Source of the DNA: an uncultured Bacteroides sp.
Lineage (GTDB): Bacteria; Bacteroidota; Bacteroidia; Bacteroidales; Bacteroidaceae
DNA length: 64,000 bases
Reading direction: 5' to 3'
NCBI GenBank assembly: GCA_944320865.1
Contig: CALUJC010000017.1
Location: 1 to 64,000, forward strand
In this document: piece by piece, positions 8,311 through 26,046 of the stretch
How the letters are laid out: each line of letters begins with the position of its first letter
How positions within the stretch are numbered: position 1 is the first letter of the stretch
Notes under the pieces: generated by a model
Told to the model about the DNA's origin: nothing
Database searches by the model: none
Seen by the model: the letters and a program-made list of their open reading frames with translations, nothing else
Translations under genes and position numbers: made by a program

Positions 8311-8385
8311 TAGGGCTCGGGACGCTACTATGCCGATACAATTTTATCAAAAAATGATATTATATATATTTTCGCAACATTTTGA

Positions 8386-8417
8386 TTTGCGATTTCTGAA
8401 ATTGCATATTACCTTTG
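8386..8417 (+). promoter_or_regulatory. Promoter of the fimbrial operon
   Basis: TTTG at 8386-8389, a 20-base spacer and TACCTTTG at 8410-8417. It leaves an A/C-rich leader of about 105 bases before the first gene at 8529. Confidence 0.8.
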
Positions 8418-8528
8418 CAGCCAAAACACTGCAAACACAGCAGCCGGCACAAGCGCGCCACGTGCCAATAGGCACAAACAAACATCAACAAACACAACAG
8501 ACAAACGATATAGTCAATACATGCAAAG

Positions 8529-9116
8529 ATGAAAGCATTGTTCACTGCCTTGCTCTTTTGCGTGGGGGTTGGGCTCTCCCCAGCTATCCGCGCCCAACAG
8601 GTGGCCGTCAAGACCAACCTGCTCTACGATGCCATGCTCAACATCAACGGAGGCATTGAGGTGGGGCTGGCTCCGCGCTGGAGCCTCGACTTCTCCGCCA
8701 ACTACAACAACTGGACCTTCTCCGGGGGCAAACGCTGGAAAAACTGGTTTTTGCAACCCGAAGCCCGCTATTGGCTGTGCGACCGCTTCAGCGGCCACTT
8801 CCTGGGCCTGCACCTCCACGGGGGGAAATACAACGTGGGCGGACTGGACAACGGGATAAACTTCTTGGGGTCCGACTTCTCGCAACTCGGCGATTACCGC
8901 TACCAGGGCTGGTTTGCCGGCGCGGGCGTGGCCTACGGCTATGCCTTCATCCTCGGCATGCACTGGAACCTGGAGCTTGAACTGGGCCTCGGCTATGCCT
9001 ATACGCGCTTCGACAAGTTTGAGTGCGTGGGCTGCGGCCGCCGCATGGAACGCGACAAGACCCACCACTACGTAGGCCCCACCAAGGCGGCGGTCAACCT
9101 GGTGTACGTCTTCTAA
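8529..9116 (+). CDS. DUF3575 outer-membrane-like protein of fimbrial locus
   Basis: A 195-residue protein with a signal peptide (MKALFTALLFCVGVGLSPAIRAQ) and alternating beta-strand sequence rich in Trp, Tyr and Gly, ending in aromatic residues (NLVYVF) as small outer membrane barrels do. It starts VAVKTNLLYDAMLNINGGIE, the usual DUF3575 opening. Such genes regularly head Bacteroides fimbrillin loci before a DUF3868 gene, as here. A role in anchoring or exporting the fimbria at the outer membrane is an inference. First gene of the operon, directly after the promoter. Confidence 0.85.
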   Translation: MKALFTALLFCVGVGLSPAIRAQQVAVKTNLLYDAMLNINGGIEVGLAPRWSLDFSANYNNWTFSGGKRWKNWFLQPEARYWLCDRFSGHFLGLHLHGGKYNVGGLDNGINFLGSDFSQLGDYRYQGWFAGAGVAYGYAFILGMHWNLELELGLGYAYTRFDKFECVGCGRRMERDKTHHYVGPTKAAVNLVYVF

Positions 9117-9199
9117 ATATACTATGGATAAGCAAAGGCCACGCCCCCGCAAGGCCGGCAAAGCCTGAAACAACAAACGAACGAACAAACCACAACCTT

Positions 9200-10633
9200 A
9201 TGAACAAGACTTACTGCATAATTCTGCTTGCCCTTTGCATCCTTGCACTGCCCGCACGGGCACAAGGAGTAGCCCAAGCCCCCGAAGGCATCGGCGTGGA
9301 CAGCCTGCGCCTGGAGCGCAACGGCAAGTACCTCACCGTGGCCATGAACCTCGACCTGGGCGGCCTGGAGGTGAAAGGCGACCGCGCCGTGCTCTTCACC
9401 CCCGTGCTGCATGGCTCCACGGACAGCGTAGAGCTGAAGTCGGTAGGCATCTACAGCCGCAGAAGCTACTACCGCTACGCCCGCCTCACCAAGAGGAACA
9501 TGATTACTGGCCCCCGGGAGCTGTCCTACAAGGCTTCGCAGACCCCCGACAGGCTGGATTATGAAGTCATCCTGCCCTACCGGCGCTGGATGGACGGCGC
9601 CACCCTGACCCTGCGCCGCGCCGACTATGGCTGCTGCGCCACCCTGCTGGCCCGGCAAGACAGTCCGCTGGCCACCTTCCGCGACCGCAAGCCCGACTAC
9701 ATGCCCCTGGCTGCCTACGTGCAGCCCCAGGTGGAGGCCGTCAAAGCACGTGCGCTGACCGGCACCGCCTACATCGACTTCCCTGTCAACCAGACGGATA
9801 TCCGTCCCGACTACCGCAACAACCGGCGCGAGCTGGACAAGATACTGGCCACCATCGACTCCGTGCGCACCGACCGCGACATCACCATCACCGCCCTCAG
9901 CATCAAGGGCTACGCCTCGCCCGAAGGCAGCTACGAACTGAACACCCGCCTGGCCGCACAGCGCACCGAGGCCTTGAAACAATATGTGTCGCGCCTCTAC
10001 CGCTTTGACAACGGATTCATACAGACGGCCTACGAGCCCGAAGACTGGGCCGGACTGCGCCGCTACGTCGAAGCCTCCGGCCTGGAGCACCGCGCGGAAA
10101 TCCTCGCCCTGATAGACGGCGACCGCGAGCCTGACAACAAGGAGTGGAAGCTGAAATCCACCTACCCCGACGACTACCGCCACCTGCTGGCCCACTGCTA
10201 CCCCGGCCTGCGCCGCAGCGACTACCGCATAGACTACGTGGTGCGCGCCTTCAGCGATGTAGACGAGATTCGCGCCCTGATGCACACCCGCCCGCAGAAG
10301 CTCAGCCTGCAAGAGTTGTTCCTCGTGGCGCAGCAGTGCGAGCCGGGCAGCGACGAGTTCAACGAAGTGTTCGAGCTGGCCGTGCGCCTCTTCCCCGACG
10401 ACCCCGTGGCCAACCTCAATGCCGCCAACACCGCCCTGCGCCGCGCCGATGTGCAGACCGCCCGCCGCTACCTGCAGAAGGCCGGCGACATGCCGCAAGC
10501 CACCTACGCCCTTGGCATCTGCGCCCTGCTGGAGGGAGACACAGACCGGGCCAAAGCCTTGCTCTTGCAAGCACAAGCGCAGGGAGTGACGCAAGCCAAG
10601 CAAGCACTGGATGAACTGGCCGTGGAAGACTGA
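9200..10633 (+). CDS. DUF3868 / OmpA-like fimbrial locus protein
   Basis: A 477-residue secreted protein: signal peptide 1-22 (ending PARAQ), an N-terminal DUF3868-like beta domain to about 185, an OmpA-like peptidoglycan-binding segment around 191-265 (YIDFPVNQTDIRPDYRNN, then IKGYASPEGSYELNTRLAAQR), and a helical TPR-like C-terminus from about 380. It probably ties the fimbrial base to the cell wall; this is inferred from the domain order and its fixed place after DUF3575. The start at 9200 gives a proper signal peptide; the same frame stays open upstream but lacks one. Confidence 0.85.
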   Translation: MNKTYCIILLALCILALPARAQGVAQAPEGIGVDSLRLERNGKYLTVAMNLDLGGLEVKGDRAVLFTPVLHGSTDSVELKSVGIYSRRSYYRYARLTKRNMITGPRELSYKASQTPDRLDYEVILPYRRWMDGATLTLRRADYGCCATLLARQDSPLATFRDRKPDYMPLAAYVQPQVEAVKARALTGTAYIDFPVNQTDIRPDYRNNRRELDKILATIDSVRTDRDITITALSIKGYASPEGSYELNTRLAAQRTEALKQYVSRLYRFDNGFIQTAYEPEDWAGLRRYVEASGLEHRAEILALIDGDREPDNKEWKLKSTYPDDYRHLLAHCYPGLRRSDYRIDYVVRAFSDVDEIRALMHTRPQKLSLQELFLVAQQCEPGSDEFNEVFELAVRLFPDDPVANLNAANTALRRADVQTARRYLQKAGDMPQATYALGICALLEGDTDRAKALLLQAQAQGVTQAKQALDELAVED

Positions 10634-10692
10634 GGACACGCCATGCAAACAAAGGAAACAAACAAATTCCATAATCAATAAAACAAACAACT

Positions 10693-12435
10693 ATGAGACT
10701 AAGTAATTTTTTAGTGATGTTTTCGGCATGTGCCCTGTTCGCCGCATGTGCCAACGATGAAACGCCCGACGGCAACAACCTGTCCCAAGGCAATGGCGAG
10801 CAAGCGTTTATTGCTGTAAGATTGGCGGCGCCCAATGCTATGACGCGCGCCACTTATGAAGATGGATCAGCTGCAGAAAGCGATGTAGACGACATCCGCT
10901 TCTACTTCTTCGACAACGACGGAAAGGATGTATCTGTCAGCGGAATTGGCACAGAAAGCAGCGTCAACTTTATCACACTGAATGCGAGTTCTACTCCTAC
11001 GGTCCCTTCTTTCGATGACGCCGGTACAGACGTGAACGTAGACAAAAAAGCTACCGTTCTTGTACTGAACAATGTAGACCTGGACAACCGTCCTGCCAAG
11101 ATGATGGTGGTACTGAACACCGGTGATGCCTTGGGTAACACCAGCCTGAGCTTAAGTTCTCTGAAAGATAAGGCTGAAGATTACCTGAAAGACAAGACCA
11201 GTGAAGGCAAGTTTGTCATGTCCAACTCTGTTTACATGGATGGTAACCCGCTGGCAACAGTCGATGCCATAGACGTAGCTGATTACATTTCCGAAAATCA
11301 GTCCGGTGCCGAAACCAATCCTGTTAAAGTATATGTGGAAAGAGTAGTAGCCCGCGTAGATGTAAAGCAAAAGAGTAATAATAACAGCTTGCAGGGCTAT
11401 ACCGATGATACTGATGTAGCCGCCACTAATATCAACGGTTACCAAGACCCGAGTACTCATAAAGTCATAGCTAATGTTAAGGGTTGGGCGATTGCCAACC
11501 AGAATGCAAAATCCTACCTTATCAAGCGACTGGATGATAAAAACTGGAATGCTACCTCCCCCTTCACCGGCTGGAACGACGCCACCAACCACCGCAGCTA
11601 TTGGGCAAACACTACCCAATTAAACACCGGTGCTTCGGCTTTGGCCACTAATCCCGATTACAACAGCATCACAAAGGCACAAGAAACTACTATTCCCAAC
11701 AGCCAATACTGCCAGGAGCGCACAGAAATCACCGACATTGACGACAACCCCACCGAACTGATTGTCTTCGCACAACTGACAGTAAACAATAACCCTACAA
11801 CCATCGCACGTTATGGCGGACAATACTATACAGTAGATGCTTTAATGAGCACATTCCTGGCACAGTTGGGCGACATCTACATCAAGTCTAAAGAGGGAGG
11901 CAGCGGCTCAACCAACATTGACAAATGGACAGCCCTATCTGCCGACCACCTCAAACTCCGCCCGGCAGAAGACGGTGAAGACGGCGTAGCCGCCTACGAG
12001 GCCGTGCTCGACCTGCAAGACGAGTTTGCCAACGGCGATAACTACGAATTTGCATCGAACAGCGAAGGTACCACCAGCATGGAACTCTCTGCTGTAGAGA
12101 AAGCCCTTAACGCCTTCACCGCCCAGCTGTGGTACAATGGCCGCACCTACTACCACGTGCCCATCACCCACGACACCGACGGCGCTACAGCTACCGACCC
12201 CGGCCGCTTCGGCGTAGTGCGCAACCACTTGTACAACATCGCCATCTCGGGCATCACCGGCCTGGGCACACCCATACCGGGCGACACCGAAGGCGGTGAA
12301 GAAGATCCGGATGACCCGGGCAAAGACCCCATCGACCCCGAAGACCCCGAGGACAGCAACTCCTACCTCGCCGCCGAAATCAACATCCTCTCGTGGAACG
12401 TTATCGGACAGAATGTAGAGCTGGGCAAGGACTAA
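10693..12435 (+). CDS. Mfa1-type major fimbrillin lipoprotein
   Basis: A 580-residue lipoprotein (lipobox FAAC, Cys19) of the Mfa1/FimA type V pilin superfamily. AMTRATYED around 49-57 supplies a candidate arginine processing site (Arg52). In Porphyromonas, cleavage at such a site frees the groove for strand exchange; use of this site here is inferred. The C-terminus has RNHLYNIAISGI, an acidic Pro/Asp linker (DPDDPGKDPIDPEDPED) and the conserved end EINILSWNVIGQNVEL, all typical of Mfa1 major subunits. It likely forms the shaft. It is followed by a 365-base repeat-filled gap before the Mfa2-like gene. Confidence 0.9.
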   Translation: MRLSNFLVMFSACALFAACANDETPDGNNLSQGNGEQAFIAVRLAAPNAMTRATYEDGSAAESDVDDIRFYFFDNDGKDVSVSGIGTESSVNFITLNASSTPTVPSFDDAGTDVNVDKKATVLVLNNVDLDNRPAKMMVVLNTGDALGNTSLSLSSLKDKAEDYLKDKTSEGKFVMSNSVYMDGNPLATVDAIDVADYISENQSGAETNPVKVYVERVVARVDVKQKSNNNSLQGYTDDTDVAATNINGYQDPSTHKVIANVKGWAIANQNAKSYLIKRLDDKNWNATSPFTGWNDATNHRSYWANTTQLNTGASALATNPDYNSITKAQETTIPNSQYCQERTEITDIDDNPTELIVFAQLTVNNNPTTIARYGGQYYTVDALMSTFLAQLGDIYIKSKEGGSGSTNIDKWTALSADHLKLRPAEDGEDGVAAYEAVLDLQDEFANGDNYEFASNSEGTTSMELSAVEKALNAFTAQLWYNGRTYYHVPITHDTDGATATDPGRFGVVRNHLYNIAISGITGLGTPIPGDTEGGEEDPDDPGKDPIDPEDPEDSNSYLAAEINILSWNVIGQNVELGKD

Positions 12436-12456
12436 CAGAATGTTTCATCACGCCCC

Positions 12457-12532
12457 GTCATGCTGAACGGAGTGAAGCATCTCCTGCAAGCAGTAATCAG
12501 CCGGAGATCCTTCACTTACGTTCAGGATGACA
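12457..12532. repeat. TGTCAT...ATGACA palindromic repeat, copy a
   Basis: GTCATGCTGAACGGAGTGAAGCATCTC and a near-complementary right arm (GAGATCCTTCACTTACGTTCAGGATGAC) form an imperfect long hairpin just after the Mfa1 stop. Related copies are at 16891, 25155 and 48024. It may serve as a terminator or attenuator here. Confidence 0.75.
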
Positions 12533-12545
12533 GGGAAAAACGAGC

Positions 12546-12752
12546 CGATACACCATTGCATACTCGGACGATACACCGACGCATACTCGGACGATGCACC
12601 GACGCATACTCGGGCGATACACCATTGCATACTCGGACGATACACCGACGCATACCCGGACGATGCACCGACGCATACTCGGGCGATGCACCGCCACATA
12701 CCCGGGTGGCACACCGCCACATACCCGGGTGGCACACCGCCACATACTCGGG
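12546..12752. repeat. 23-bp minisatellite, nine units
   Basis: Nine contiguous 23-base units of the type CGATACACCGACGCATACTCG plus two bases, with a partial tenth to about 12759. Units 1-3 and 4-6 are the same triplet with one change, giving a 69-bp higher-order repeat; units 7-9 drift to a CCGCCACATACCCGGG form. Because 23 is not a multiple of 3, open frames arise in several phases, but they show no sign of being genes. It lies between the Mfa1 and Mfa2 genes. Confidence 0.9.
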
Positions 12753-12800
12753 TGGCATAAACGAAAACAGTAAACCGAGAACAGACACCACATAAGGACA

Positions 12801-13814
12801 ATGAAAAGATTCTTCATTCTTCACTCTTCATTCTTCATTTCCCTGTTGCTCGCCTCGTGCAGCATCATGGACTATGAGGGCGACTGCACGCCTTACTACC
12901 GCGCGCGCTTCACCTACGACCACCACCTGCACTACAGCGACGCCTTTGCGCAGCAGGTGCAGAGCGTGGCCCTCTATGCTTTCGACGAAGGGGGGCGCTA
13001 CGTGGCCTGCTTCCGCGACCGGGGCGAGGCACTGGCCCGCGAGGGCTACACGCTGCCCGTCGACCTGCCCGCCGGACGCTACCACTTCGTGGCCTGGTGC
13101 GGACTGGAGGATGAACGGCAATCGCACGCCGTGCCCACGCTGCAACCCGGCACATCGACACTGAGCGACCTGACGTGCACCGTGCAGCGCGAACATGCCG
13201 ACGGGACGACGGCCACTGCCGGCGAGCTGGCGCCCGCCTTCCACAGCCTGGTGACGGACGTGGAGCTGACGGACACCTACGGCACGCACTACATCGACAT
13301 CCCGCTGGTGAAGGACACCAAGACCGTGCGCGTGGTGCTGCAACACCTCGACGGCTCGCCCGTGCCTGCCGACCGGTTTACCTTCAACATTGCCTGCGCC
13401 AACGGCCTCATGGCCCACGACAACAGCCTGTTGCCCGACGAGGTGCTGAACTACCGGCCCTACTACACAGCCTCGGGCACTGCCGAGACCCAGGCCGACG
13501 GCACGCGCGCCACCACGTCCATCTCTACCGCCCTGGCCGAAATGTCCACCGGGCGGCTGGTGTGGGACAACGGCACGCCCGCCACCCTCAGCGTCACCAA
13601 CAACGAGACGGGCCAGGTGGTGCTCTCCATCCCGCTCATGGACTACGCCCTGCTCGTCAAGGGCTACTACAACCGCGACATGCCCGACCAGGAGTACCTC
13701 GACCGGCAGGATGAGTACAACCTCACCTTCTTCCTCGACGAAAACAACCGTTGGGTCAGCTCCACCATCATCATCAACTCGTGGCGCGTGGTGCTGAGCG
13801 AGGAGGAACTCTGA
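12801..13814 (+). CDS. Mfa2/FimB-like fimbrial anchor lipoprotein
   Basis: A 337-residue lipoprotein (lipobox LASC, Cys20) with the family opening SIMDYEGDCTPYYRARFTYDHH and a conserved C-terminal strand (NNRWVSSTIIINSWRVV). In Porphyromonas, Mfa2 ends the fimbria at the outer membrane and limits its length; the same role is likely. The signal peptide FFILHSSFFISLLLASC is encoded by a TTCTTCATTC-type repeat that elsewhere in this window occurs between genes. The ATG at 12801 is the only start giving a lipobox. Confidence 0.88.
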   Translation: MKRFFILHSSFFISLLLASCSIMDYEGDCTPYYRARFTYDHHLHYSDAFAQQVQSVALYAFDEGGRYVACFRDRGEALAREGYTLPVDLPAGRYHFVAWCGLEDERQSHAVPTLQPGTSTLSDLTCTVQREHADGTTATAGELAPAFHSLVTDVELTDTYGTHYIDIPLVKDTKTVRVVLQHLDGSPVPADRFTFNIACANGLMAHDNSLLPDEVLNYRPYYTASGTAETQADGTRATTSISTALAEMSTGRLVWDNGTPATLSVTNNETGQVVLSIPLMDYALLVKGYYNRDMPDQEYLDRQDEYNLTFFLDENNRWVSSTIIINSWRVVLSEEEL

Positions 13815-13840
13815 GGATAATGAAGAATTAAGAATTAAGA

Positions 13841-15682
13841 ATGAAAGACGAAACAATGAGACAGAATACATCATACATAGCATGGACGGTAGAAAGGCTT
13901 CGCACCCTCTGCAAAGCCCGGAAGGTGCTTTCCGCCTCCACCAGATTCTTCATTCTTAATTCTTCATTCTTCATTTTATTGTCCTGCTCCATCATGGACG
14001 ACGGCCCCGACGCCCTGTCGCTGCAAGACGGCAGCACGGCGCAAGTGGCCTTCACCCTGAAGCTGGACAAGGCACAGCCCGCCACGCGCACCACGTGGGG
14101 CGACAACTACCCGGACAAAGCCGGCACCGGCTATGAGAACCGCATAGACCAACTGCAAGTGGTGCTCTACAGCAAAGATAACGCCGCCTACCCCCTGCAC
14201 AACCTGTGGCAGGAAACCTCGGCCACCCAGGGTGGCGGACAAGACACCTACACCTTTGTGGGCAGCATCGACACCAACAATGACGATAGTCCCCGGGCAG
14301 GCAAGTACAAGATTATGGTGTTTGCCAACTGCGAAGATATTTCCGAGGAAAACAATTTGGGTAACCTTACCTACCAATATACCTACACCGACAGCGAGGC
14401 CGACCCCGCCATCCCCATGTGGGGAGTGACCACCACCACGCTGAACCTGACGCCCGGCGAACGCGAAGAAATAGGGAACATTGACCTGCTCCGCGCCGTG
14501 GCCAAGGTGGAGGTGCAGCTACAAGACAACAACGACACCCAAGGCTTCTCGCTAACAGGCGTCACCATCAGCACCGCCAACACGCAGGGGTATTGCCTGC
14601 CTGCAGGCTATGCCAATGTAAACCATACCAAGGAGCTGGATAGAGAAGACGGTAATACCAATTACACCTTCCACCCCTACCCCGGCAGTACGACCACGAC
14701 AGCCCTTGCCTTTGTTGAAAGCAACGGCACCTACACCCTCTACCTGCCCGAATACGACAACGGCACAGGCAACACACCCGCCACCCTGTCCGTCACCGTG
14801 ACCGACGAGGACAACCGGCAAGACACCTATACCCTTGAGTTCAGAGACTACACCGACGGCCGGCCCACCGGCGAGGCCTACGACATCGTGCGCAACCACC
14901 TCTACCGCTACACCATCACCAAGATAGACAACGGGCAGCTGACCGTGCAGCACCGCGTGATGCCTTGGGACAAGGTGTCCACCGCGTGGGGGGCTGGGGG
15001 CTATGCCTGCCAACTGCTGCCGGAAGGCTATGAGCCCGGCAACACCTCGGAGATGGGGGATATAGAATCGCGCCTGTGCATACTGTATCGCCCATCATAC
15101 GCCGACAACGGCGCAGCTGCAGGTACAGAGGGGTATCACGCAGAACTTAAAACAGGCAGCGCCGGGGCACGGTACGAATTCACGTTGACCGCCCCCGAAG
15201 GAGCCGTGTGGACAGCACACCTCACCAACACCGACGTATTCAGCTTCTCGCAAAGCACTGAAGGCGGACAGAAAATGGTATCCACCGGCATTGCCAGAAA
15301 AGAGCCATACCTGCTGCAAATCAACGTCAATGGCTCTAAGGCATGGACGGAAGGCACGTCTTTCGACGACCTTGCCGAGTGGGGACAGCAGATGGAGGCC
15401 AGCCACGACATAGATGCCATATCGACCTACTTCTACATCACCGTCTCTGTGGACGGCGGGCACGAAGAAGAGCTGGTCATCAACCCCGCCAATGCGCTAC
15501 AGGAAGGCGAGCCCACCTATTACCGCGACAGACGACGCTATGCCGGCACAGACACGAGGATATGGATACGCCAAGTGCCTGCCCAAAGCGGATGGAGCTA
15601 CGATGAACTGGCCGAAGATACCTCCCCCACCGATGAAAGCGGATACTACTGGTGGCGCGTCAACCCGTATTGGTCGCACTAA
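13841..15682 (+). CDS. Large fimbrial accessory lipoprotein
   Basis: A 613-residue frame with lipobox LLSC (Cys49) after an unusually long N-terminal stretch. A GTG at 13925 would give a normal 21-residue signal peptide, so the true start may be there. ATRTTWGDNYPDKAG near 70-85 carries an arginine processing-type site, then a fimbrillin-like domain ending in RNHLYRYTITKIDNGQLTV, then a second beta-rich half (from about 395) finishing in a Trp/Tyr-rich end (SGYYWWRVNPYWSH). Probably a minor subunit; the exact position in the fimbria is unknown. Its signal-peptide DNA is again the TTCTTCATTC-type repeat. Confidence 0.75.
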   Translation: MKDETMRQNTSYIAWTVERLRTLCKARKVLSASTRFFILNSSFFILLSCSIMDDGPDALSLQDGSTAQVAFTLKLDKAQPATRTTWGDNYPDKAGTGYENRIDQLQVVLYSKDNAAYPLHNLWQETSATQGGGQDTYTFVGSIDTNNDDSPRAGKYKIMVFANCEDISEENNLGNLTYQYTYTDSEADPAIPMWGVTTTTLNLTPGEREEIGNIDLLRAVAKVEVQLQDNNDTQGFSLTGVTISTANTQGYCLPAGYANVNHTKELDREDGNTNYTFHPYPGSTTTTALAFVESNGTYTLYLPEYDNGTGNTPATLSVTVTDEDNRQDTYTLEFRDYTDGRPTGEAYDIVRNHLYRYTITKIDNGQLTVQHRVMPWDKVSTAWGAGGYACQLLPEGYEPGNTSEMGDIESRLCILYRPSYADNGAAAGTEGYHAELKTGSAGARYEFTLTAPEGAVWTAHLTNTDVFSFSQSTEGGQKMVSTGIARKEPYLLQINVNGSKAWTEGTSFDDLAEWGQQMEASHDIDAISTYFYITVSVDGGHEEELVINPANALQEGEPTYYRDRRRYAGTDTRIWIRQVPAQSGWSYDELAEDTSPTDESGYYWWRVNPYWSH

Positions 15683-15696
15683 CAAATAAAGAGCGT

Positions 15697-17019
15697 ATGA
15701 CAATGAAACCTACCACACTCTACATATTCACCCTGATGCTGGCCGCCTGCCTGGCTGCCTGCACTGCCGACGACCTGCCGGGCGGTACCACCGTCCCCGG
15801 CAGCGGCACCCTGCGCATTGCCTACCGCGTGGCAGGAAACAGCGTGCAGACCAAGGCCGACAACACCGAAGCCGGTGTGGACGCGCTGAACGAAAACACG
15901 GTGACGAGGCTCGATTTCTTTGCTTTCAAGAGCGACGGCTCGCTGCTGTGCCCGGTAATATCTTTCACCCAAGGCACGTTCTATTCCGCCACCTATGCCC
16001 CTCTTACCATCAGCGAAGACCAGCTCTCATTGGAGGCCGTGCAAGACAACACCGACGGCAGCTACTACTTAGTGGCCAACTGCCCGTCCGTGGCCAATAT
16101 TACCACATTAAGTGACTTGCAGGCCGCCCTTACCAGCGGCACAGGCAACCCCGCCCTCATCACCACCGACGGCACCGTCCCCACGGCCTTCATCATGGAC
16201 GCCAAGGCCACACCCGCCACAAGCGGCAAAGACATCACCTTGAGCTTCGACCTGCGGCGGGCAGCGGCAAAGATACGCATCCGCGTCACTGGTGGAACTC
16301 CTAAGACTTTCCAGTTCTTCCACTATGCAGACGATGCGTATGTGATAAGCAGCGAAACTCCTTATCCCGATGAACTGCAATCTACGGCAGAAACAACCAT
16401 AACCGACAATATTCCCCTGCGCGACGGCGATGGCTACGTCTTCTACTCCTACCCCAACGACTGGTTCAACAGCACGCTCTACACCCAAGAAGAAAACGGC
16501 AACTATACTTGCAACGATGAAGGCCTGCACAACGGCGAGCCCATCGTGGCGGCCAAGCAGACCTACCTGCTGCTGCAGGCCACTTATGATAATAAGGAGT
16601 ATTACTACAAAATCCCCGTCAACCGCCGCCTGCCAGACTTCAACGACAACCCCAGCTTTACGGAAGATGAGTACGAGCAAATACACGACCTCTACCGCCT
16701 GAAGCGCAACCACCTGTACGACGTCGCCGTCACCATCAGCGGCCCCGGCGGCACAATGGACGACCCCGTGGTGCCCGCCTACACCATAACGATTAACGAC
16801 TGGGTGAACGGCCACCCCGATGGCGACGACGGCCGCTACGAACTGCCGCCCGATGCCTTTGTCGAGCCGAGCACGTCAAATGTTTCACCCTGTCATCCTG
16901 AGCGGAGGCGTCAGCCGCAGTCGAAGGATCTCACGTATCGCGCCGCACTCTCCGCGCTGAATGGGAGATGCTTCACTGACGTTCAGCATGACAGAGCCAA
17001 TGAATTTCTCAATTCTTAA
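15697..17019 (+). CDS. Fimbrillin-like lipoprotein with repeat-derived C-terminus
   Basis: A 440-residue lipoprotein (lipobox LAAC, Cys22; start MTMKP) with an Mfa-like body: DALNENTVTRLDFFAFKSDG, a central beta domain, KRNHLYDVAVTISGPGG and ITINDWVNG near the usual C-terminal end of this family. The last part, from about residue 399, is encoded by a copy of the dispersed TGTCAT repeat (16891-16993), so the tail HPERRRQPQSKDLTYRAA and following residues are not part of the ancestral protein. A minor fimbrial subunit is likely. Whether the altered protein still works is unknown. Confidence 0.8.
   Translation: MTMKPTTLYIFTLMLAACLAACTADDLPGGTTVPGSGTLRIAYRVAGNSVQTKADNTEAGVDALNENTVTRLDFFAFKSDGSLLCPVISFTQGTFYSATYAPLTISEDQLSLEAVQDNTDGSYYLVANCPSVANITTLSDLQAALTSGTGNPALITTDGTVPTAFIMDAKATPATSGKDITLSFDLRRAAAKIRIRVTGGTPKTFQFFHYADDAYVISSETPYPDELQSTAETTITDNIPLRDGDGYVFYSYPNDWFNSTLYTQEENGNYTCNDEGLHNGEPIVAAKQTYLLLQATYDNKEYYYKIPVNRRLPDFNDNPSFTEDEYEQIHDLYRLKRNHLYDVAVTISGPGGTMDDPVVPAYTITINDWVNGHPDGDDGRYELPPDAFVEPSTSNVSPCHPERRRQPQSKDLTYRAALSALNGRCFTDVQHDRANEFLNS
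16891..16993. repeat. TGTCAT...ATGACA palindromic repeat, copy b (inside an ORF)
   Basis: Starts TGTCATCCTGAGCGGAG and ends with ACGTTCAGCATGACA. It is 103 bases long and lies in the 3' part of the fimbrillin-like gene, replacing its stop codon region and adding about 40 codons. Confidence 0.8.
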
Positions 17020-17038
17020 TTCTCAATTCTCAATTTAA

Positions 17039-18010
17039 ATGACTCGTTCCCTCTACATAACCCTCCTGCTGATGCCACTCCTCCTGCCGGCCTTGACCGC
17101 CTGCACCGACGGCACCACCCCCCTGCCCGCCCCCGCCGCGCATCCCCGCTTCGTGCTGCAGCAGACGGTGCAGACACGCGTGGCGTACCCCACGGACAGC
17201 TACACCCAATCCCTGTTCGAGGAGGGCGACGTGCTGGGCGCCTTTGTACTCGATGGTAGCAATACTACGCTATCGGGCGAGCGTTCCAACGCCCGCTACG
17301 TAGTGACCCAACGCCAGGAAGGCGGCCCCTTGACGCTTGAACCCGAGCTGCCGCAAGACGCCTTCCCCGCCGATGCAGGCTACACCTACATTTTCTACTA
17401 CCCTTACAAAGAGGGCACGGAGTTTGACAAGGTGACCCACCTGGTAGAGGCCGACCAGCGCAGCCAAGCCCGCTACGAAAACTCCGACCTGCTGTGGGAT
17501 GCCGCCCAGGGCACAGGCACCAACGACAACCTGACCGTCAATGTGGCGATGGACCACGCCATGGCCAGCATCGTGCTGGAGGTGCCTACAGATATGATGC
17601 ACGCCGGCGCCGAGCCTTGGGCACAGATATTGGGCATCAAGTCGCTGGTGGCGGGCATCAACCTGAATGTGGACAGCCCCGACGACCTTACCGGGAACTA
17701 TGGCTACGCGGGCGAAACCGTGTTCAGCCAAAACATCTACATGTGGCTGTTCGACACGAAAGAGATAGATGGCAAGCAGATGCACGTGTATCGCGCCGCC
17801 ATCCCCGCACAGACCATAGCGAACAACAAGAAGATGTTCCGCATCCAAGGCAAGGATAAGGAACTGACCTACAACGCCGAGTTCACCGGAGGAAGCATCA
17901 GCTTCAAGCCCGGCAAATACTACCGCTTCACCGTGACCGAAACCGGCCTGCGCTTTGCCGGCCTGATAGAAGACTTAGAAGATGGAGGAGACCACTACTA
18001 TGAATACTGA
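17039..18010 (+). CDS. Fimbrillin family lipoprotein
   Basis: A 323-residue lipoprotein (lipobox LTAC, Cys22) of the Mfa-like/FimA-like family. QTRVAY at 45-50 followed by SLFEEGDVLG (58-67) is the same block seen in the next two genes. YIFYYPYKEG and FDTKEIDGK-type strands follow, and the end is SFKPGKYYRFTVTETG. Likely a minor subunit. The start ATG overlaps the AT-rich repeat region after the preceding gene, and the stop overlaps the next start by 11 bases, so the two are translationally coupled. Confidence 0.85.
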   Translation: MTRSLYITLLLMPLLLPALTACTDGTTPLPAPAAHPRFVLQQTVQTRVAYPTDSYTQSLFEEGDVLGAFVLDGSNTTLSGERSNARYVVTQRQEGGPLTLEPELPQDAFPADAGYTYIFYYPYKEGTEFDKVTHLVEADQRSQARYENSDLLWDAAQGTGTNDNLTVNVAMDHAMASIVLEVPTDMMHAGAEPWAQILGIKSLVAGINLNVDSPDDLTGNYGYAGETVFSQNIYMWLFDTKEIDGKQMHVYRAAIPAQTIANNKKMFRIQGKDKELTYNAEFTGGSISFKPGKYYRFTVTETGLRFAGLIEDLEDGGDHYYEY

Positions 18011-19352
18011 CAAATCATTACGCCGCTTCCGCCTGTGCCTCTGCGCCCTCGTGCTCGCACTGGCGGGCTGCACCGGGCAGGAATGGGAGGAGATGAATGC
18101 ACCGGAAGACAAAACGGCCGCATTCAGCTTTTCCGTGCAAGACATACAGACACGGGTGAACTACGACTTCGAACATTCTTTTTTCGACGAAGGTGACCTT
18201 GTGGGCTGCGTCATTGCGGAAGTGAATGCCGATGGCACATATACTTACCTCAGGAACTCTGCCTGGAAATACCAAAACGGAATGCTGGTTTTCCAATATT
18301 ATTGGGGATGGAAAATGGTTAGAGATCAATGGAACAATCCGTCAGTAATTTGGAATAAAATATATCCTACCGACACAGAAGTTCAAGGTCAAAACGACCA
18401 AACTGAAATAACCAACAAGATTATTGCCCCTGACACCGACAAAGGCGGGGAATACCTTACTTCTCCTTATCTTACTGCCAATCCGGACAAGAAATTGAGG
18501 TTCTTTTTCTTTTATCCGTATGTGGATAATGAGTTGCTGACTGCCGAATATCAACGCATGCAGGGTCTTTCTTATCAATTTTTAATCTATCCGAACTGCG
18601 CAACGGCTACAACAACTTTGCCTTCGTCACCTACTGATAATAGCTGGTCCCAACTCACTCTTTTAGGAGAAGTAAATGACGTAGACAATACTTCTACATA
18701 TTATAAGTACAACTGGACTGCTTATCCCTGCTTTGTCAACCACACCCAAGGCGATATAAATGCCGCAGGTCAGGCTAATGACCAACGCCTCCAGAACAGT
18801 GATTTTCTGTGGACAGCTTCACCGGATATAAACGTAAACTCTCAAAGCAGGGTATCCCTGCTGTTTCAGAAAAAGACAGCTACCATATTGGTATATAGTG
18901 AAACACAGCTTGATGACATTTATTTCATGGCAAATGAAGCTAATACGCTTCTCAGAGGTAACATAATTAATTTGGCAACAGGGACATTGACAGCCTACGA
19001 CGACCCGAATCCATATTATGAGCCCTCTGTACAAAAGAAAAACAAATATTTCAAAGCAGACGAGCGCATCATCCCCCGCTACCGGGGTCAGGACATAGCC
19101 GAAGGAAGTAATTATTACTTCTACCGCTTAGTGCTGCCCGCGCAAGAGGAGTGCAGCTTCAAGATGCACTTCGAAATTGCAGAAGGTGGCATCAATCAAG
19201 ACATCGACCTATCGGCCGATGACCACCTGTCTGCACTAAAAGAAGGCTACCTCTATTCTATCCGCATCTCGAAAGACGGCAAGACCGTGATACGGATAAA
19301 CGACTGGATAGACAACGGCAGCAGCGACTTGGAAGAAGTTACACAACCTTAA
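18000..19352 (+). CDS. Fimbrillin family lipoprotein, AT-rich centre
   Basis: A 450-residue lipoprotein (lipobox LAGC, Cys24). IQTRVNY at 49-55 and SFFDEGDLVG (60-69) repeat the block of the neighbouring subunits, and the end KEGYLYSIRISKDGKTVIRINDW is typical of the family. The middle, coded by about 18300-19060, is much more AT-rich than both ends, which suggests that a variable domain has been exchanged. The start MNTDKS at 18000 is preferred because it overlaps the upstream stop and leaves a normal signal peptide. Confidence 0.83.
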   Translation: MNTDKSLRRFRLCLCALVLALAGCTGQEWEEMNAPEDKTAAFSFSVQDIQTRVNYDFEHSFFDEGDLVGCVIAEVNADGTYTYLRNSAWKYQNGMLVFQYYWGWKMVRDQWNNPSVIWNKIYPTDTEVQGQNDQTEITNKIIAPDTDKGGEYLTSPYLTANPDKKLRFFFFYPYVDNELLTAEYQRMQGLSYQFLIYPNCATATTTLPSSPTDNSWSQLTLLGEVNDVDNTSTYYKYNWTAYPCFVNHTQGDINAAGQANDQRLQNSDFLWTASPDINVNSQSRVSLLFQKKTATILVYSETQLDDIYFMANEANTLLRGNIINLATGTLTAYDDPNPYYEPSVQKKNKYFKADERIIPRYRGQDIAEGSNYYFYRLVLPAQEECSFKMHFEIAEGGINQDIDLSADDHLSALKEGYLYSIRISKDGKTVIRINDWIDNGSSDLEEVTQP

Positions 19353-19375
19353 CCGATAAAAAACAGACCTGCATC

Positions 19376-21901
19376 ATGACACGGAACATATATTTCAGAC
19401 TAATAACCGCCCTGCTGCTGGCATCTGCCCTGACGGCATGCGAAGACGAAGACATCGTGCAAAGCAATGGAAGCCACGCTGCCAGCAATGCCTTTTGGGC
19501 GCAATATGACTTTGTATTGGGCGAAAACAGCTACATGACACGCGTAAGCTATGAAGACGACAAAGTGTCCCTGTTTGAAGAGGGGGACGAGATAGGGGTG
19601 TATGTGGTGAACGATGAGGGGAATCTGGTATCGGGCGAAACATATAACAGCAATGTCCGCTACGTGGTGCGGAACGCTACCCATTTGGAGAACAACGAAC
19701 AGCGCCAGGTGCTGCTGCCGTTCAATCCCAATGAGGCTGTCACCAAGAATCCGGCCTACCACTACGTGCTCTACTACCCGTATGATGCCGATATGACATT
19801 GAATCGCTTGAAGGATTATACCCATAGCGTGGCAACCGACCAAGGGGAAGCAGGGGCTTTCGAGGCTTCCGACCTGTTGTGGTGCTACTACACGCCCCCG
19901 GCTGGCAGCACGGAAGCCTACGAGGTGACATTCGACCACGCCATGGCACAGATAGTCGTACTGCTGGGCGGCATCTACATGCCCGGCGAAAACCAAGCCT
20001 CGGCAGTGCAACTTCTGAACATGTCAGTGCAGGCCACGGACATCAATATGGTACAGCCAGGAGGAACATCGTTTTCCTACACTACCTCCAACACAAAAGT
20101 GGAAGAAATAGGCGCCTGGTGGTTTGAAAAAGGCAGCACGAACGACCTCCTGCAATACCGCGCCTGCATCCCCGCGCAAGCCATCGGTGCAGGCGAACCT
20201 TTGGTGCGGATTCACTTCAACAGTGCCACCTATAAAGACTACAAGATAAACACCGAGCTTCAGTTGAAGCCCGGACATACCTACACCCTCACCCTCAGCA
20301 AGGAAGGTATCACCGAGATAGAAATCAATGACGATGACACCTGGGTGTATGATGTGCTCGACCCCGAAACCGGCCGCCCCGTAGGGTTGCTGTGCAGGGA
20401 GTATTTGAGGTATCAAGAAAAAGACGATACTGACGCGCACACCGGTACAGAAGGGACAAATACAGACGGCACTGCGACCAAATGGATTAACTCGCAAGCA
20501 TGGGTGTTCTACAATTTACAACCAGGTACGGATACTCCCGAATTAAGTAAAGGCAAGGTATTAAGATTTCTTTATGATATTGACAATAGATACAGTCCTA
20601 ATGGAGGAAACGGAACTACAAGATGGCCTGCTCCTCATTATAAAAAAAGTCAACTTGGCCTCTTTACGCCCATGCATGGTTATTTGTGGGCTGACGGAAA
20701 AGAATCATATAATTGGGATTATGGAAAAGAATCTGAAAAGCCAGAAAACTATCAAGAATACTACATGCATGGTGGAACAATTTATTGGGATGGAGAACAC
20801 AACAAAATTATTAAATTCGAACTCCCTAAAGAAAACATAACAAATTCTCAAGCAGCAGCACAAGGGCATATCGCCATCAGCCAAGAAGGCACAGTAGACA
20901 TCTCTTATGACAATATTTATGCAGAAAATGCAAAAATAGGGCTCATCACCCCACATTATCTTATAGATACCCGCACAACTTCAAGCGGCACAACAGAGAT
21001 CAACCAGTATCCATTGGTAAAGATTGGATATAATCAATTCTGGATGTCCAAACCTTTACGGACAACTATTTTTACAGACGGTACACCTATCACTTGCTAC
21101 AACAAAACTGATGGCACAATGGGAATAAGTTTTAACTCCGATGAAAGAATCGGAGCAGGATATATATTCCCTTTTTGGACAGAACAAGGTAATACAACAA
21201 ATTCATACGACCCTTATAATAATGAAGATGAAATGTATCCTGAAAATACAACTTTCCGCCCCGCACCATTTTACAACAAAATAACAATCGACCATGAAAA
21301 TTTTATCCCTGTCCCCATGAATGACCAAATAGAGTATCTTATGCCCGGACAGGATGACATAAAAGAAATAGGGAACTATTTCGGGCCTTATTTTGCTGCA
21401 AAAATGTGTACAAGAGAAATTGCCAAATATAATGGTGACAATTTCGAATACGACAAATACACTGCAGTATGCAAAGGAGAAACATATAGCGGAAGTGCAA
21501 CTGCCAACGCCTATGTTGCCAACATCAGTGGTCTCAATTTACACGCATTAGGACAGTTAGCACCGGCAACAAGCCTTAACAGTTGCTCGGAGGTAACAGC
21601 AAACGCCACCATCATGCTAAAATCATCTCAAGCAGAATATGTTGACTTATTTATGATACATGTTTATGACCCGTGGAATGCAACACTTGATGTGGGAGGG
21701 GGAAACTCTAGTACACTCCAAAGCTCAAACCACCAAGGTGCCACGTACCGCATAACTCAAGAATTCGCCCAAGTCCGCCTGTTCATGCGCTTCAAGAATC
21801 CTACAGCCGGCGGCACTTCGGTGTCCTACCACACCCGCTCCGCCTCCCCGCAGCAGCCGGAAAGCCGCAACGTGTATGTGCCGCTGGAGGCAGTGGAGTG
21901 A
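19376..21901 (+). CDS. Large fimbrillin-family lipoprotein, probable tip adhesin
   Basis: An 841-residue lipoprotein (lipobox LTAC, Cys22). Residues 1-320 are a fimbrillin module with YMTRVSY (53-59), SLFEEGDEIG (65-74), HYVLYYPYDAD and LKPGHTYTLTLSKEGITEIEI. A second large region from about 330 to 795 is unlike the other subunits and is coded by AT-rich DNA (about 20500-21740). The last 45 residues (FAQVRLFMRFKNP to the end) return to GC-rich DNA and are duplicated at 22645. As the last and largest gene of the operon it is a good candidate for the tip adhesin; the ligand is unknown. Confidence 0.8.
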   Translation: MTRNIYFRLITALLLASALTACEDEDIVQSNGSHAASNAFWAQYDFVLGENSYMTRVSYEDDKVSLFEEGDEIGVYVVNDEGNLVSGETYNSNVRYVVRNATHLENNEQRQVLLPFNPNEAVTKNPAYHYVLYYPYDADMTLNRLKDYTHSVATDQGEAGAFEASDLLWCYYTPPAGSTEAYEVTFDHAMAQIVVLLGGIYMPGENQASAVQLLNMSVQATDINMVQPGGTSFSYTTSNTKVEEIGAWWFEKGSTNDLLQYRACIPAQAIGAGEPLVRIHFNSATYKDYKINTELQLKPGHTYTLTLSKEGITEIEINDDDTWVYDVLDPETGRPVGLLCREYLRYQEKDDTDAHTGTEGTNTDGTATKWINSQAWVFYNLQPGTDTPELSKGKVLRFLYDIDNRYSPNGGNGTTRWPAPHYKKSQLGLFTPMHGYLWADGKESYNWDYGKESEKPENYQEYYMHGGTIYWDGEHNKIIKFELPKENITNSQAAAQGHIAISQEGTVDISYDNIYAENAKIGLITPHYLIDTRTTSSGTTEINQYPLVKIGYNQFWMSKPLRTTIFTDGTPITCYNKTDGTMGISFNSDERIGAGYIFPFWTEQGNTTNSYDPYNNEDEMYPENTTFRPAPFYNKITIDHENFIPVPMNDQIEYLMPGQDDIKEIGNYFGPYFAAKMCTREIAKYNGDNFEYDKYTAVCKGETYSGSATANAYVANISGLNLHALGQLAPATSLNSCSEVTANATIMLKSSQAEYVDLFMIHVYDPWNATLDVGGGNSSTLQSSNHQGATYRITQEFAQVRLFMRFKNPTAGGTSVSYHTRSASPQQPESRNVYVPLEAVE

Positions 21902-21909
21902 GCGAAAGG
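21764..21909 (+). repeat. 146-bp direct repeat, copy in the adhesin 3' end
   Basis: Identical to 22645-22790 except for three positions. It begins in frame at the codon for Phe797 and extends 8 bases past the stop codon. Confidence 0.95.
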
Positions 21910-21963
21910 GGTAGAACGGGAACTTGAAGCACTGCGCGCATGGGCTGAAGTATGCGCCACTCG

Positions 21964-22242
21964 TCATTTATCCCCGTAATGTCCTTTCAACGAAACGACA
22001 AACACGGTGACAACATCTTCATCTATCCGGTAAATAAGGCGCGAGCCTTTGTCAATTCTACGGCTCCAATAGCCTTGCAGGTTACCCCTAAGTTGCTCAA
22101 CCTGCCCCGTGCCTGTAGCTGGGTGTTGCTGCAATTCCTCAAAGAGAGAAACAATCTTCTGAAGAATCTTTTTTTGCCCGGATTTATGCCACTCCTTTAG
22201 CTGTTGCTCCGCCTTGGGCACCAATACTAACTTATAACTCAT
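21964..22242 (-). CDS. YoeB/Txe-like toxin
   Basis: A 92-residue RelE/ParE-fold protein very similar in layout to Txe/YoeB mRNA interferases, which cut mRNA in the ribosomal A site: KAEQQLKEWHKSGQKKILQKI, QLRGNLQGYWSRRIDKG, SRLIYRIDED and the C-terminal HYGDK with the catalytic-type His. It overlaps the antitoxin by four bases (ATGA). The pair lies between the adhesin gene and the orphan copy of its 3' end. Confidence 0.88.
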   Translation of the reverse strand: MSYKLVLVPKAEQQLKEWHKSGQKKILQKIVSLFEELQQHPATGTGQVEQLRGNLQGYWSRRIDKGSRLIYRIDEDVVTVFVVSLKGHYGDK

Positions 22243-22532
22243 ACACCCAAAAGAGCTTTTATTTCATCTATGGAATAAGCCTTTCCCTTGCCGGCTTTCA
22301 TGTCGGCTATCCCTTGGTAAAGGCCTTTCATGTTCTCCGCATCGTTGAACCATTCATCGCCCGAAGGAGAAGGATTCTCGCTCACCTCCACCGATATGCT
22401 GTCTGCCTTTGATATAAGCAACTGCTCGATGTAGGTTTTCAAGCTCTTGCCCTGCGCCACAGCAATCAATGATAATTTCCTCAACGTGTCTTCCGGAAGA
22501 TCTATGTTCTTCCTTTTCAATGTCATATCCAT
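22239..22532 (-). CDS. Antitoxin partner of the YoeB-like toxin
   Basis: A 97-residue protein with an N-terminal part that looks ribbon-helix-helix-like (NIDLPEDTLRKLSLIAVAQG, then SLKTYIEQLL) and an acidic C-terminal tail for toxin binding (EWFNDAENMKGLYQGIADMK, YSIDEIKALLGV). It is first in the bicistron, as usual for such pairs. It probably represses its own promoter through the palindrome just upstream. The exact antitoxin family was not recognised. Confidence 0.8.
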   Translation of the reverse strand: MDMTLKRKNIDLPEDTLRKLSLIAVAQGKSLKTYIEQLLISKADSISVEVSENPSPSGDEWFNDAENMKGLYQGIADMKAGKGKAYSIDEIKALLGV

Positions 22533-22555
22533 TTCAATGCTATTTTTGTATAAGG

Positions 22556-22593
22556 CAAAGGTATAGAATATATCTGATGTATATCATATATTC
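22556..22593 (-). promoter_or_regulatory. Promoter and operator-like palindrome of the toxin-antitoxin pair
   Basis: Minus strand TACCTTTG at 22556-22563 fits the -7 consensus. Directly upstream, perfect arms GAATATAT (22566-22573) and ATATATTC (22586-22593) form a dyad overlapping the spacer, where an antitoxin-toxin complex could bind. Confidence 0.65.
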
Positions 22594-22644
22594 GTGCAAT
22601 TATTTCGTCTGCAGACGGTAAAAAACGGCATTTACACCCACTTC

Positions 22645-22790
22645 TTCGCCCAAGTCCGCCTGTTCATGCGCTTCAAGAATCCTACAGCCGGCGGCACTTC
22701 GGTGTCCTACCACACCCGCTCTGCCTCCCCACAACAGCCGGAAAGCCGCAACGTGTATGTGCCGCTGGAGGCAGTGGAGTGAGCGAAAGG
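22645..22790 (+). pseudogene. Orphan 3' end of a fimbrial adhesin gene
   Basis: A second copy of the last 45 codons and 8 downstream bases of the 841-residue adhesin. The three differences (TCC/TCT, CCG/CCA, CAG/CAA) are all synonymous. The frame stays open upstream only to 22567, where it runs into the antitoxin promoter, so no start or signal peptide exists. It looks like the remnant of an earlier adhesin gene or a donor end for recombination. The rest of the gap to 23267 holds the hairpin at 23025 and the deaD promoter. Confidence 0.85.
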
Positions 22791-23024
22791 CTGAAATGAG
22801 TGTTTACGATGGCACGCAAAACGTGCTTGCCCCCGCACAGACAAACCATGCAAGAACGAGAATGTAAACATATTAAAATTCCTGCATCCTCCGCGCCAAA
22901 ATCCATAAATGTTTACGTGAAAAATCTTGACTGTTTAATTTTCCTTACAAAAAACGCTCCAAAAAGTACCCGTAACCAGCTATTATTCAACATATTGCCG
23001 CAACAAACACGCCCCGGCTACGTA

Positions 23025-23097
23025 CCACCTCCGACTCTCCTCCGATACAAGTCCGACTCAAGTCCGATAATCCATGGGCGTATTGGGTCGGAGGTGG
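23025..23097. repeat. Inverted repeat between antitoxin and DEAD-box helicase genes
   Basis: Perfect 11-bp arms CCACCTCCGAC (23025-23035) and GTCGGAGGTGG (23087-23097) enclose short repeats of the type AGTCCGAC/AGTCCGATA. It lies between divergent genes like the GTACGA repeats, but its sequence is different. Confidence 0.6.
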
Positions 23098-23203
23098 ACC
23101 GTAGAAAATACGGACATGTCCGGGAGGAAATAGGGAGATGACAGCCTTTGGAATGGTTGTTTTTGTAAATATTCCTTTTTCGCACTAACCTTTCGGAGGG
23201 GAA

Positions 23204-23235
23204 TATTGCAATCCCACGGAAAATGCGTACCTTTG
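23204..23235 (+). promoter_or_regulatory. deaD promoter
   Basis: ATTG (23204-23207, one change from TTTG), a 20-base spacer and TACCTTTG (23228-23235), 32 bases before the start codon. Confidence 0.65.
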
Positions 23236-23266
23236 CACCCGAATTTCAAGTAACACAAGATTTTAA

Positions 23267-25129
23267 ATGAAGACATTTGAAGAACTTGGTGTGTCGGCCG
23301 AGATACGCCAAGCCATTGAAGAAATGGGCTACGCGCAACCGATGCCCGTGCAAGAAGAAGTAATCCCCTACCTGCTGGGCGAGAATAACGACGTGGTGGC
23401 GCTGGCGCAGACCGGCACCGGCAAGACAGCCGCCTACGGGTTGCCGCTCATCCAGAAGACGGACGTGACGCGCAACGTGCCCCAATCGCTCATCCTCTGC
23501 CCCACGCGCGAACTGTGCCTGCAGATAGCGGGCGACCTGAGCGACTACTCCAAATACATCAGCGGGCTGCGCGTGCTGCCCGTATACGGCGGCTCGTCCA
23601 TCGAGAGCCAGATACGCGCGCTGAAGCGCGGCGTGCACATCATCGTGGCTACGCCGGGGCGCCTCATCGACCTGATGGAGCGCAAAACGGTATCGCTGGC
23701 CACCGTGCAGAACGTGGTGATGGACGAGGCCGACGAGATGCTGGACATGGGCTTCACCGACAGCATCAACGCCATCCTGGCCGACGTGCCCCAGGAGCGC
23801 AACACGCTGCTCTTCTCCGCCACCATGAGCCCGGAGATAAGCCGCATAGCCCGGCAGTACCTGCACAACGCCAAGGAAATCACCATCGGGCGGAAAAACG
23901 AGAGCACCAACACCGTGAAGCACGTGGCCTACTGCGTGCACGCCAAAGACAAATATGCCGCACTGAAGCGCATAGTAGACTACTATCCCCAGATATATGC
24001 CATCATCTTCTGCCGCACACGCGCCGAGACGCAGGAGATTGCCGACAAGCTGATGCAGGAAGGCTACAATGCCGACGCCCTGCACGGCGACCTCAGCCAG
24101 GCGCAACGCGACCAGGTGATGCAGAAGTTCCGCATACGCAACCTGCAGCTGCTGGTGGCCACCGACGTGGCAGCCCGCGGGCTGGACGTGGACGACCTGA
24201 CGCACGTGATAAACTACGGCCTGCCCGACGACGTGGAAAGCTATACCCACCGCAGCGGGCGCACGGGCCGCGCCGGAAAGACGGGCACCTCCATCGCCAT
24301 CATCAACCTGCGCGAGAAGGGCAAGCTGAAACAGATAGAACGCATCATCGGCAAGAAGTTTGAGGCAGGCGAAATGCCCACCGGCAAGCAAATCTGCGAA
24401 AAACAACTGATGAAGCAGATAGACGACCTGGAAAAGGTGAAAGTGAACGAGGAAGAGATAGCCGACTTCATGCCCGACGTGTACCGCAAGCTGGACTGGC
24501 TGTCGAAAGAAGACCTCATAAAGCGCATGGTGAGCCACGAGTTCAACCGCTTCCTGGACTACTACCGCGACCGCGAAGAGATACAAGTGGCCTCCTTCCT
24601 GGAGGGCGGCCGCAAGGAAAAGAAAGGCCGGGGCGAAAAGACAAACGCCAAGGGGCCACGCCGCGCGGAAGAAGGCTACACGCGCCTGTTCATCAACTTG
24701 GGCAAGGCAGACAACTTCTTCCCCACCGACCTCATCAGCCTGCTCAACAGCCACACACGCGGGCGCATCGCCGTGGGCCGCATCGACCTGATGCGCAACT
24801 TTGCCTTCTTTGAAGTGGAAGAAGGCGCCACAAAAAATGTACTGAAGGCACTGAACCGCGCTTCCTGGAGAGGGCACAAGGTATCGGTAGAAGTGGCCGA
24901 CGCCGACGACAAAGGACAGGGCGGCAAAGAAGGCGGCAAGCGCAAAGGCGGGAACAAGCCGGCTAAGGCAACAGCCCAAACCCGCCATGCCAAGCAGGAA
25001 TATGCCCCTGCCAACAAGAAGAAAGACGACTGGCGCCAATTCTTCCAACCCGGCAACGAGCTGCGCGGAATTGAACCGGACTTCAGCGAGGAGGGCTGGG
25101 CAAAACGGTCGAAGAAGAAAAAGAGATAA
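23267..25129 (+). CDS. deaD: DEAD-box RNA helicase with DbpA-type RNA-binding domain
   Basis: A 620-residue ATP-dependent RNA helicase of the DeaD/CsdA type, which remodels ribosomal precursors and structured mRNA, often in the cold. Motifs: Q-motif GYAQPMPVQ (21-29), AQTGTGKT (47-54), PTREL, DEAD (153-156), SAT (184-186), ARGLD (303-307) and HRSGRTGR (328-335). A DbpA-like RNA-binding domain spans about 470-545 (YTRLFINLGKADNFFPTDLI), and a basic Lys/Gly-rich tail ends the protein. The stop codon TAA is the left target duplication of the first repeat element downstream. Confidence 0.93.
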   Translation: MKTFEELGVSAEIRQAIEEMGYAQPMPVQEEVIPYLLGENNDVVALAQTGTGKTAAYGLPLIQKTDVTRNVPQSLILCPTRELCLQIAGDLSDYSKYISGLRVLPVYGGSSIESQIRALKRGVHIIVATPGRLIDLMERKTVSLATVQNVVMDEADEMLDMGFTDSINAILADVPQERNTLLFSATMSPEISRIARQYLHNAKEITIGRKNESTNTVKHVAYCVHAKDKYAALKRIVDYYPQIYAIIFCRTRAETQEIADKLMQEGYNADALHGDLSQAQRDQVMQKFRIRNLQLLVATDVAARGLDVDDLTHVINYGLPDDVESYTHRSGRTGRAGKTGTSIAIINLREKGKLKQIERIIGKKFEAGEMPTGKQICEKQLMKQIDDLEKVKVNEEEIADFMPDVYRKLDWLSKEDLIKRMVSHEFNRFLDYYRDREEIQVASFLEGGRKEKKGRGEKTNAKGPRRAEEGYTRLFINLGKADNFFPTDLISLLNSHTRGRIAVGRIDLMRNFAFFEVEEGATKNVLKALNRASWRGHKVSVEVADADDKGQGGKEGGKRKGGNKPAKATAQTRHAKQEYAPANKKKDDWRQFFQPGNELRGIEPDFSEEGWAKRSKKKKR

Positions 25130-25271: not shown

Positions 25272-25274
25272 TAA

Positions 25275-25447: not shown

Positions 25448-25453
25448 TAAACC

Positions 25454-26017: not shown

Positions 26018-26038
26018 TAGTAATGCCAAGGTTTCGCG

Positions 26039-26046
26039 CAAATATA
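26039..26046 (-). promoter_or_regulatory. ECF sigma gene promoter -7 element
   Basis: Minus strand TATATTTG fits TAnnTTTG, about 22 bases upstream of the chosen start. Confidence 0.5.

Follow-up and report, generated by a model that had tools for sequence, protein, structure and literature searches.

Two described systems stand closest to the locus reported here. In Escherichia coli K-12, prophage e14 duplicated 165 bp of the end of icd, and the duplicate (icdC) carries 12 nucleotide exchanges and an intact frame, according to the accessible part of PMC11148124. In Porphyromonas gingivalis, Mfa5 proteins join differing N-terminal parts to a conserved C-terminal half, and some strains carry tandem mfa5 genes, according to the accessible part of PMC8313007. 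We analyzed a window of 64,000 nucleotides (the whole stretch of DNA considered, to which all coordinates refer; contig CALUJC010000017.1, C17 in our numbering) from the 3.03-Mb draft genome of an uncultured Bacteroides sp. (76 contigs, 94.8% complete), in which a fimbrial tip-type adhesin gene is followed by a second, orphan copy of its own 3' end, with a toxin-antitoxin (TA) pair between the two copies. The explanation that we favor, tentatively and with a confidence just short of even, is that a TA-carrying insertion left the adhesin gene with an intact 3' end and placed a spare end beyond the TA pair, as a one-off insertion scar.

The adhesin gene (19376..21901, + strand, 841 aa) encodes an N-terminal Mfa_like_1 domain (residues 55-316) followed by a body with no Pfam match in this member; no relative was found in PDB by sequence profile, and the tip location of the protein is predicted from its position and domain alone. 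Its last 45 codons, the stop codon and 8 further nucleotides make up the live copy of the repeat (21764..21909, +) and recur as the orphan (22645..22790, +), giving two 146-nt copies spaced 881 nt apart with three mismatches (98% identity) and with frame and stop intact in both. These coordinates, the length and the spacing agree exactly with those in a preliminary description of this DNA. The match of the orphan to its own genome lies far beyond chance (BLAST, E 1.2e-67), and among direct repeats of at least 45 nt in the window the adhesin-end copies are the sole near-identical, short-spaced pair outside tandem arrays. Outside the repeat, no homology was seen between the sequences flanking one copy and the other (shuffle fractions 0.45 and 0.81). 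The orphan lies within a 62-aa frame starting at GTG and is presumably untranslated. A 54-nt spacer (21910..21963) separates the live tail from the TA cassette and a 52-nt spacer (22593..22644) separates the cassette from the orphan, the final codons of the latter spacer (AAC GGC ATT TAC ACC CAC TTC) forming an open stretch in the orphan's frame; neither spacer has a convincing second place in the genome (best other matches E 0.57 for the 54 nt and 0.09 for the 52 nt).

The cassette itself consists of two genes running opposite to the adhesin gene, a YoeB/RelE-type toxin gene of 92 aa (21964..22242, -) and, upstream of it with a 4-nt overlap at the toxin start, an antitoxin gene of 97 aa (22239..22532, -). 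The toxin scored above the cut-offs of both Pfam YoeB_toxin (PF06769; E 1.7e-18, 66.9 bits against 27) and TIGR02116 (68.0 bits against 51.8), confirming that a YoeB-like addiction module lies between the copies, as had been described. The best match of the antitoxin was sub-threshold (NF048017, 23.6 bits against a cut-off of 50), and no Pfam family matched it at E 0.001. The pair is probably active. In a comparison sample with one genome per species, relatives were found in two genomes of the same genus, G155 and G158, whose alignments are bounded at 21964..22592 (-) and cover only this stretch, at 78.8% and 78.4% DNA identity respectively, with 85-86% identity between the antitoxins. Around the G155 relative we found endolysin, holin and phage protease family matches; a gene of that protease family flanks the G158 relative on one side, with a Phd/YefM-type antitoxin gene and an HTH antitoxin-type gene on the other. 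These are settings other than that of the adhesin gene, and the TA pair therefore occurs apart from fimbriae. We additionally observed that the relative in G158 (L066, 186-1164) stands within a small cluster of TA-type genes. As a separate matter, derivation of the insert from a phage or plasmid was considered and rejected: the insert and its right flank had no DNA match in phage or plasmid records, a 26-nt tail pattern found nothing in viral contigs, the antitoxin found nothing in viral contigs or phage records, and the toxin matches in 8 phage records were all below 60% identity.

Comparison with adhesin relatives indicates what is particular to this lineage. Among 158 genomes of the genus, the only full-length relative besides the adhesin itself was in Bacteroides sp. 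ET71 (G108; E 5.9e-171, 44%), which was also the sole other genome to match across the whole query among 399 family genomes (own genome included). A profile scan of named genomes yielded eight orthologues, all collinear end to end; ET71 (L115) is the nearest, and the rest come from Bacteroidales, Barnesiella and Porphyromonadaceae records. Within the fetched DNA (short contigs in the case of L120 and L121), none of the eight carries its tail twice and none of their loci matches the TA pair, and both therefore look like additions on this lineage. Significant matches to the 45-residue tail across the 158 genomes of the genus were confined to the source genome (two copies) and ET71 (E 9.3e-10), the remaining matches listed having E 0.03 or worse; by DNA, the tail was found in 1 of 41 genomes, its own. 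A shared tail acting as a family-wide cassette end was accordingly rejected, since the tail is nearly confined to two genomes and its identity to the eight orthologues (15-51%) is to be set against 30-45% for the body and 30-39% for the N-terminal part, being higher than that of the body in four orthologues and lower in four.

On the insertion explanation, a small TA cassette would have inserted at the adhesin gene's 3' end, the incoming DNA either bringing the last 45 codons a second time or giving rise to a duplicate of them. The upstream reading frame would have kept an intact end, now the live tail, and the spare end would have been left beyond the cassette as the orphan. We infer that the cassette arrived as one insertion, that the duplication belongs to the same event, and which copy is native. 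The arrangement of repeat and TA pair is real, local and probably young, and no further example turned up among the eight orthologues and 137 TA loci. The scan of the latter (603 kb, overlapping places included and 11 entries of the adhesin locus itself excluded) sought direct repeats of at least 60 nt and at least 85% identity within 5 kb, and returned five loci with flanking repeats, four of them distinct (L129 and L136 are one place). Tentatively, we attribute these repeats to a second TA copy in L068, to a repeat array with no evident gene in L119, to some 640 nt of duplicated sequence in L129/L136 and to paralogous genes in L134.

The three differences between the copies (live/orphan: 21841 C/T, 21850 G/A and 21853 G/A) all fall at codon position 3, and the longest identical run is 77 nt. 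That all three are synonymous, as reported in the preliminary description, is confirmed; its step from there to an orphan that was functional until recently is a weak argument. Depending on the transition weight (1-4), 25-30% of changes in the tail are synonymous, which gives P 0.016-0.026 for three of three (about 0.02). Taking the orphan as derived makes all three changes G:C-to-A:T transitions, 44% of which are synonymous here, and P becomes 0.083; with the live copy as the derived one, P is 0.010. At the sole comparable site, ET71 carries the base of the live copy (compared by eye), and given this and the P of 0.083, a young, decaying orphan is therefore a fair reading, though the orphan may instead have been functional until recently. 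We also noted that the differences cluster within 13 nt (21841-21853; P 0.017 under random placement).

Several observations weigh against the insertion explanation. No integrase or att-like core is left at the insert, and the contig holds no PF00589 tyrosine recombinase, the 7 matches in the genome (5 above the cut-off) lying elsewhere; serine recombinases were not searched for. To these we add the lack of a phage or plasmid DNA match to the insert and its right flank given above. A flanking gene-end duplication was found at none of 29 other TA loci of the genus, the one locus with a direct repeat (L068) holding a second TA copy. In an exact-repeat scan of 25 of these 29 (leaving out the incomplete L075, L081, L083 and L088), 22 had no repeat of at least 14 nt, L073 and L076 had one of 15 nt, and L092 had one of 20 nt beside a second TA copy. 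Finally, the last 9 nt before the orphan are closer to the nearest orthologue than to the live gene (7 match ET71 at the same place, 4 match the live gene), which, as far as so short a sequence comparison goes, points to a different adhesin allele as the source.

This last observation bears directly on the main rival, which we consider unlikely and yet better placed than any other alternative: the orphan may be all that is left of another adhesin gene once arranged in tandem with the first (compare mfa5-1/mfa5-2 of P. gingivalis), with the TA pair between the two genes, the rest of the second gene deleted, and the tails alike through recent duplication or gene conversion. The 17 codons preceding the orphan are open, and those just before it are in frame and rich in G and C at third codon positions (GC3-rich). 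A match of 7/9 or better to the best of eight relatives arises at 0.9% of 59,971 window positions (null fraction 0.009), a figure obtained for a stretch picked after the fact, and tandem tip genes with a common C-terminal half are known, as far as the accessible part of PMC8313007 goes. These 9 nt, amounting to three codons, are a lead toward another adhesin allele or a second gene rather than proof of one. On the other side, only about 7 codons of a possible body are left, just 9 of the last 30 nt before the orphan match the nearest orthologue, and a second tail occurs in none of the eight orthologues within the fetched DNA.

The preliminary description had instead proposed that a new adhesin body, arriving with its own tail and the TA pair, replaced an older body, making this a cassette-type switching locus, and we regard this as improbable. 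It drew on the AT-rich live body beside a GC-rich tail and on the three synonymous differences, and the 9 nt before the orphan add a weak sign that another allele was the source. The compositional step is real (GC3 of 0.34 in the body and 0.82 in the tail), but the first 345 codons, which went unmentioned, are GC-rich as well (0.68), and the ET71 orthologue shows the same mosaic (0.73 in the N-terminal part, 0.32 in the body and 0.63 in the tail). Because the window and ET71 proteins are collinear yet share just 44% identity, the simplest reading of the step is that it is old, and composition fails as an argument for a new body. Recent import of an AT-rich body was likewise rejected as evidence, with ET71 showing the same steps and the other seven relatives being mixed: N-terminal GC3 exceeds body GC3 in seven of the eight (all except L116), and tail GC3 lies at least 0.1 above that of the body in two (L115 and L117). 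The even split of the orthologues in tail and body conservation also speaks against replacement. Moreover, switching needs at least two bodies, whereas the source genome, 94.8% complete, has one body and two tails, a second body with this tail was not found in it, and all eight orthologues are collinear without an extra tail. What survives of this interpretation is an orphan that is the displaced or left-over end of the adhesin or of an allele, with the TA pair between the two ends; the new body and the cassette switching are not supported. The suggestion that the scar can serve as a recombination site is similarly divided: recombination between the copies could in principle delete the 881-bp unit, TA genes included, yet could not switch the adhesin because the repeat brings no other body with it. 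From the way type II TA modules generally act, this pair would be expected to select against loss of the 881-bp unit.

We find it just as improbable that the gene end underwent a plain local duplication, with the TA pair inserted between the copies later and the two events unlinked. The 98% identity of the copies and their spacing of 881 nt are as expected of such a duplication, but two independent rare events are needed and the copies stand in unrelated flanking sequence. Slightly more doubtful still are two speculative extensions, a minimal integrase-less TA element that inserts into and restores the adhesin end and is moved by outside enzymes (e.g., those of a phage), or a formerly active site of allele exchange where crossover took place in the 45-codon end and the TA pair holds the new allele in place. 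An assembly artefact, conceivable in a draft of 76 contigs, is very improbable, since the copies have three differing sites and at most 77 identical nt, and longer reads or k-mers would separate them.

The adhesin gene is the last of a type V (FimA/Mfa1) fimbrial locus, in which fimbrillin and Mfa2 anchor lie in one cluster with fimbrillin-like accessory proteins downstream. Gene order runs from DUF3575 and DUF3868 genes through the major fimbrillin (10693-12435, Fimbrillin_C) and the Mfa2 anchor (12801-13814, Mfa2) to five further genes, the last of them the adhesin gene; among these, accessory or tip genes starting at 13841 and 15652 have FimD_tip_adhes matches below the cut-off, one starting at 17039 matches Mfa_like_1 (as does the adhesin gene at 19376), and one starting at 17982 has no family match. 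G155, the nearest of the genomes examined in the genus as judged from the neighboring helicase gene (93.5-94% nucleotide identity), lacks the whole fimbrial locus with the TA pair and the orphan (8322..23213, +) at this site, and there the matches to window positions 7777-8321 and 23214-25129 stand only 53 nt apart. The stretch 8322-23213 may have been inserted here or deleted in G155, the comparison fitting either direction. Upstream of the helicase gene in four other genomes (4.5 to 15 kb each), the major fimbrillin, Mfa2 and adhesin had no match.

Repeats and mobile-type genes were also observed around the cluster. A PF12784 PD-(D/E)XK nuclease family transposase gene borders it at 7162-8184, and one borders it on the opposite side in ET71 (L115, 11610-12656). 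A dispersed repeat holding GTACCGAATGGGGTACGA or a similar sequence occurs at 8226-8316, 31298-31448, 42443-42593 and 63474-63568 (copies 76-91% alike), the first of these adjoining the left bound of the fimbrial stretch. Arrays of a 23-bp tandem repeat lie at 12546-12752, between the major fimbrillin and Mfa2 genes, and at 54077-54223. A 179-nt element, bounded by 22-nt terminal inverted repeats that are 95% complementary, is present at 25272-25450 and, in opposite orientation and 97% alike, at 30242-30420; 43 matches to it are listed in its own genome, partial and weak opposite-strand ones included, as for a dispersed repeat resembling a miniature inverted-repeat transposable element. G155 lacks window positions 25130-26097, which hold this element and an ECF-type sigma factor gene; its helicase gene is followed directly by the match of position 26098.

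Taken as an insertion scar, the locus suggests how a small addiction module could become established behind a surface gene and leave that gene intact. It also illustrates that a duplicated gene end and a compositional step are not by themselves evidence for adhesin switching, the same step being present in a collinear orthologue. Should strains prove to vary in the adhesin body, this repeat would offer the type V fimbriae of a Bacteroides a ready point for crossover. The novelty claimed for this fimbria class is smaller than the preliminary description held, in that Mfa5 variants and tandem mfa5 genes already appear in the accessible part of PMC8313007. P. gingivalis Mfa5 is, by the same partial source, likewise an accessory component of type V fimbriae; it differs in that only 45 codons recur here, with one body in the genome, and in that the sole Pfam match of the protein here is the N-terminal Mfa_like_1 domain. 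The TA pair resembles type II modules of the Txe/YoeB-RelE kind in a toxin above the family cut-offs and an antitoxin gene upstream and overlapping, and differs from them in an antitoxin above no family cut-off and in having copies of an adhesin gene end on both sides. A closer precedent may exist outside the open-access literature. Against gene-end-restoring elements of the e14 type, we found the duplicated in-frame end on both sides and no site-specific recombinase, serine recombinases not having been searched for: the interval here is 735 nt and holds the TA pair alone, with no integrase or prophage genes. With no recombinase between the copies and no PF00589 match on the contig, we do not claim membership in that class, and the likeness is one of geometry alone. 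As in e14 and icd, insofar as the accessible part of PMC11148124 describes them, an insertion at a gene's 3' end would have one side supply the end while an in-frame orphan remains, over 165 nt with 12 exchanges there and 146 nt with 3 here.

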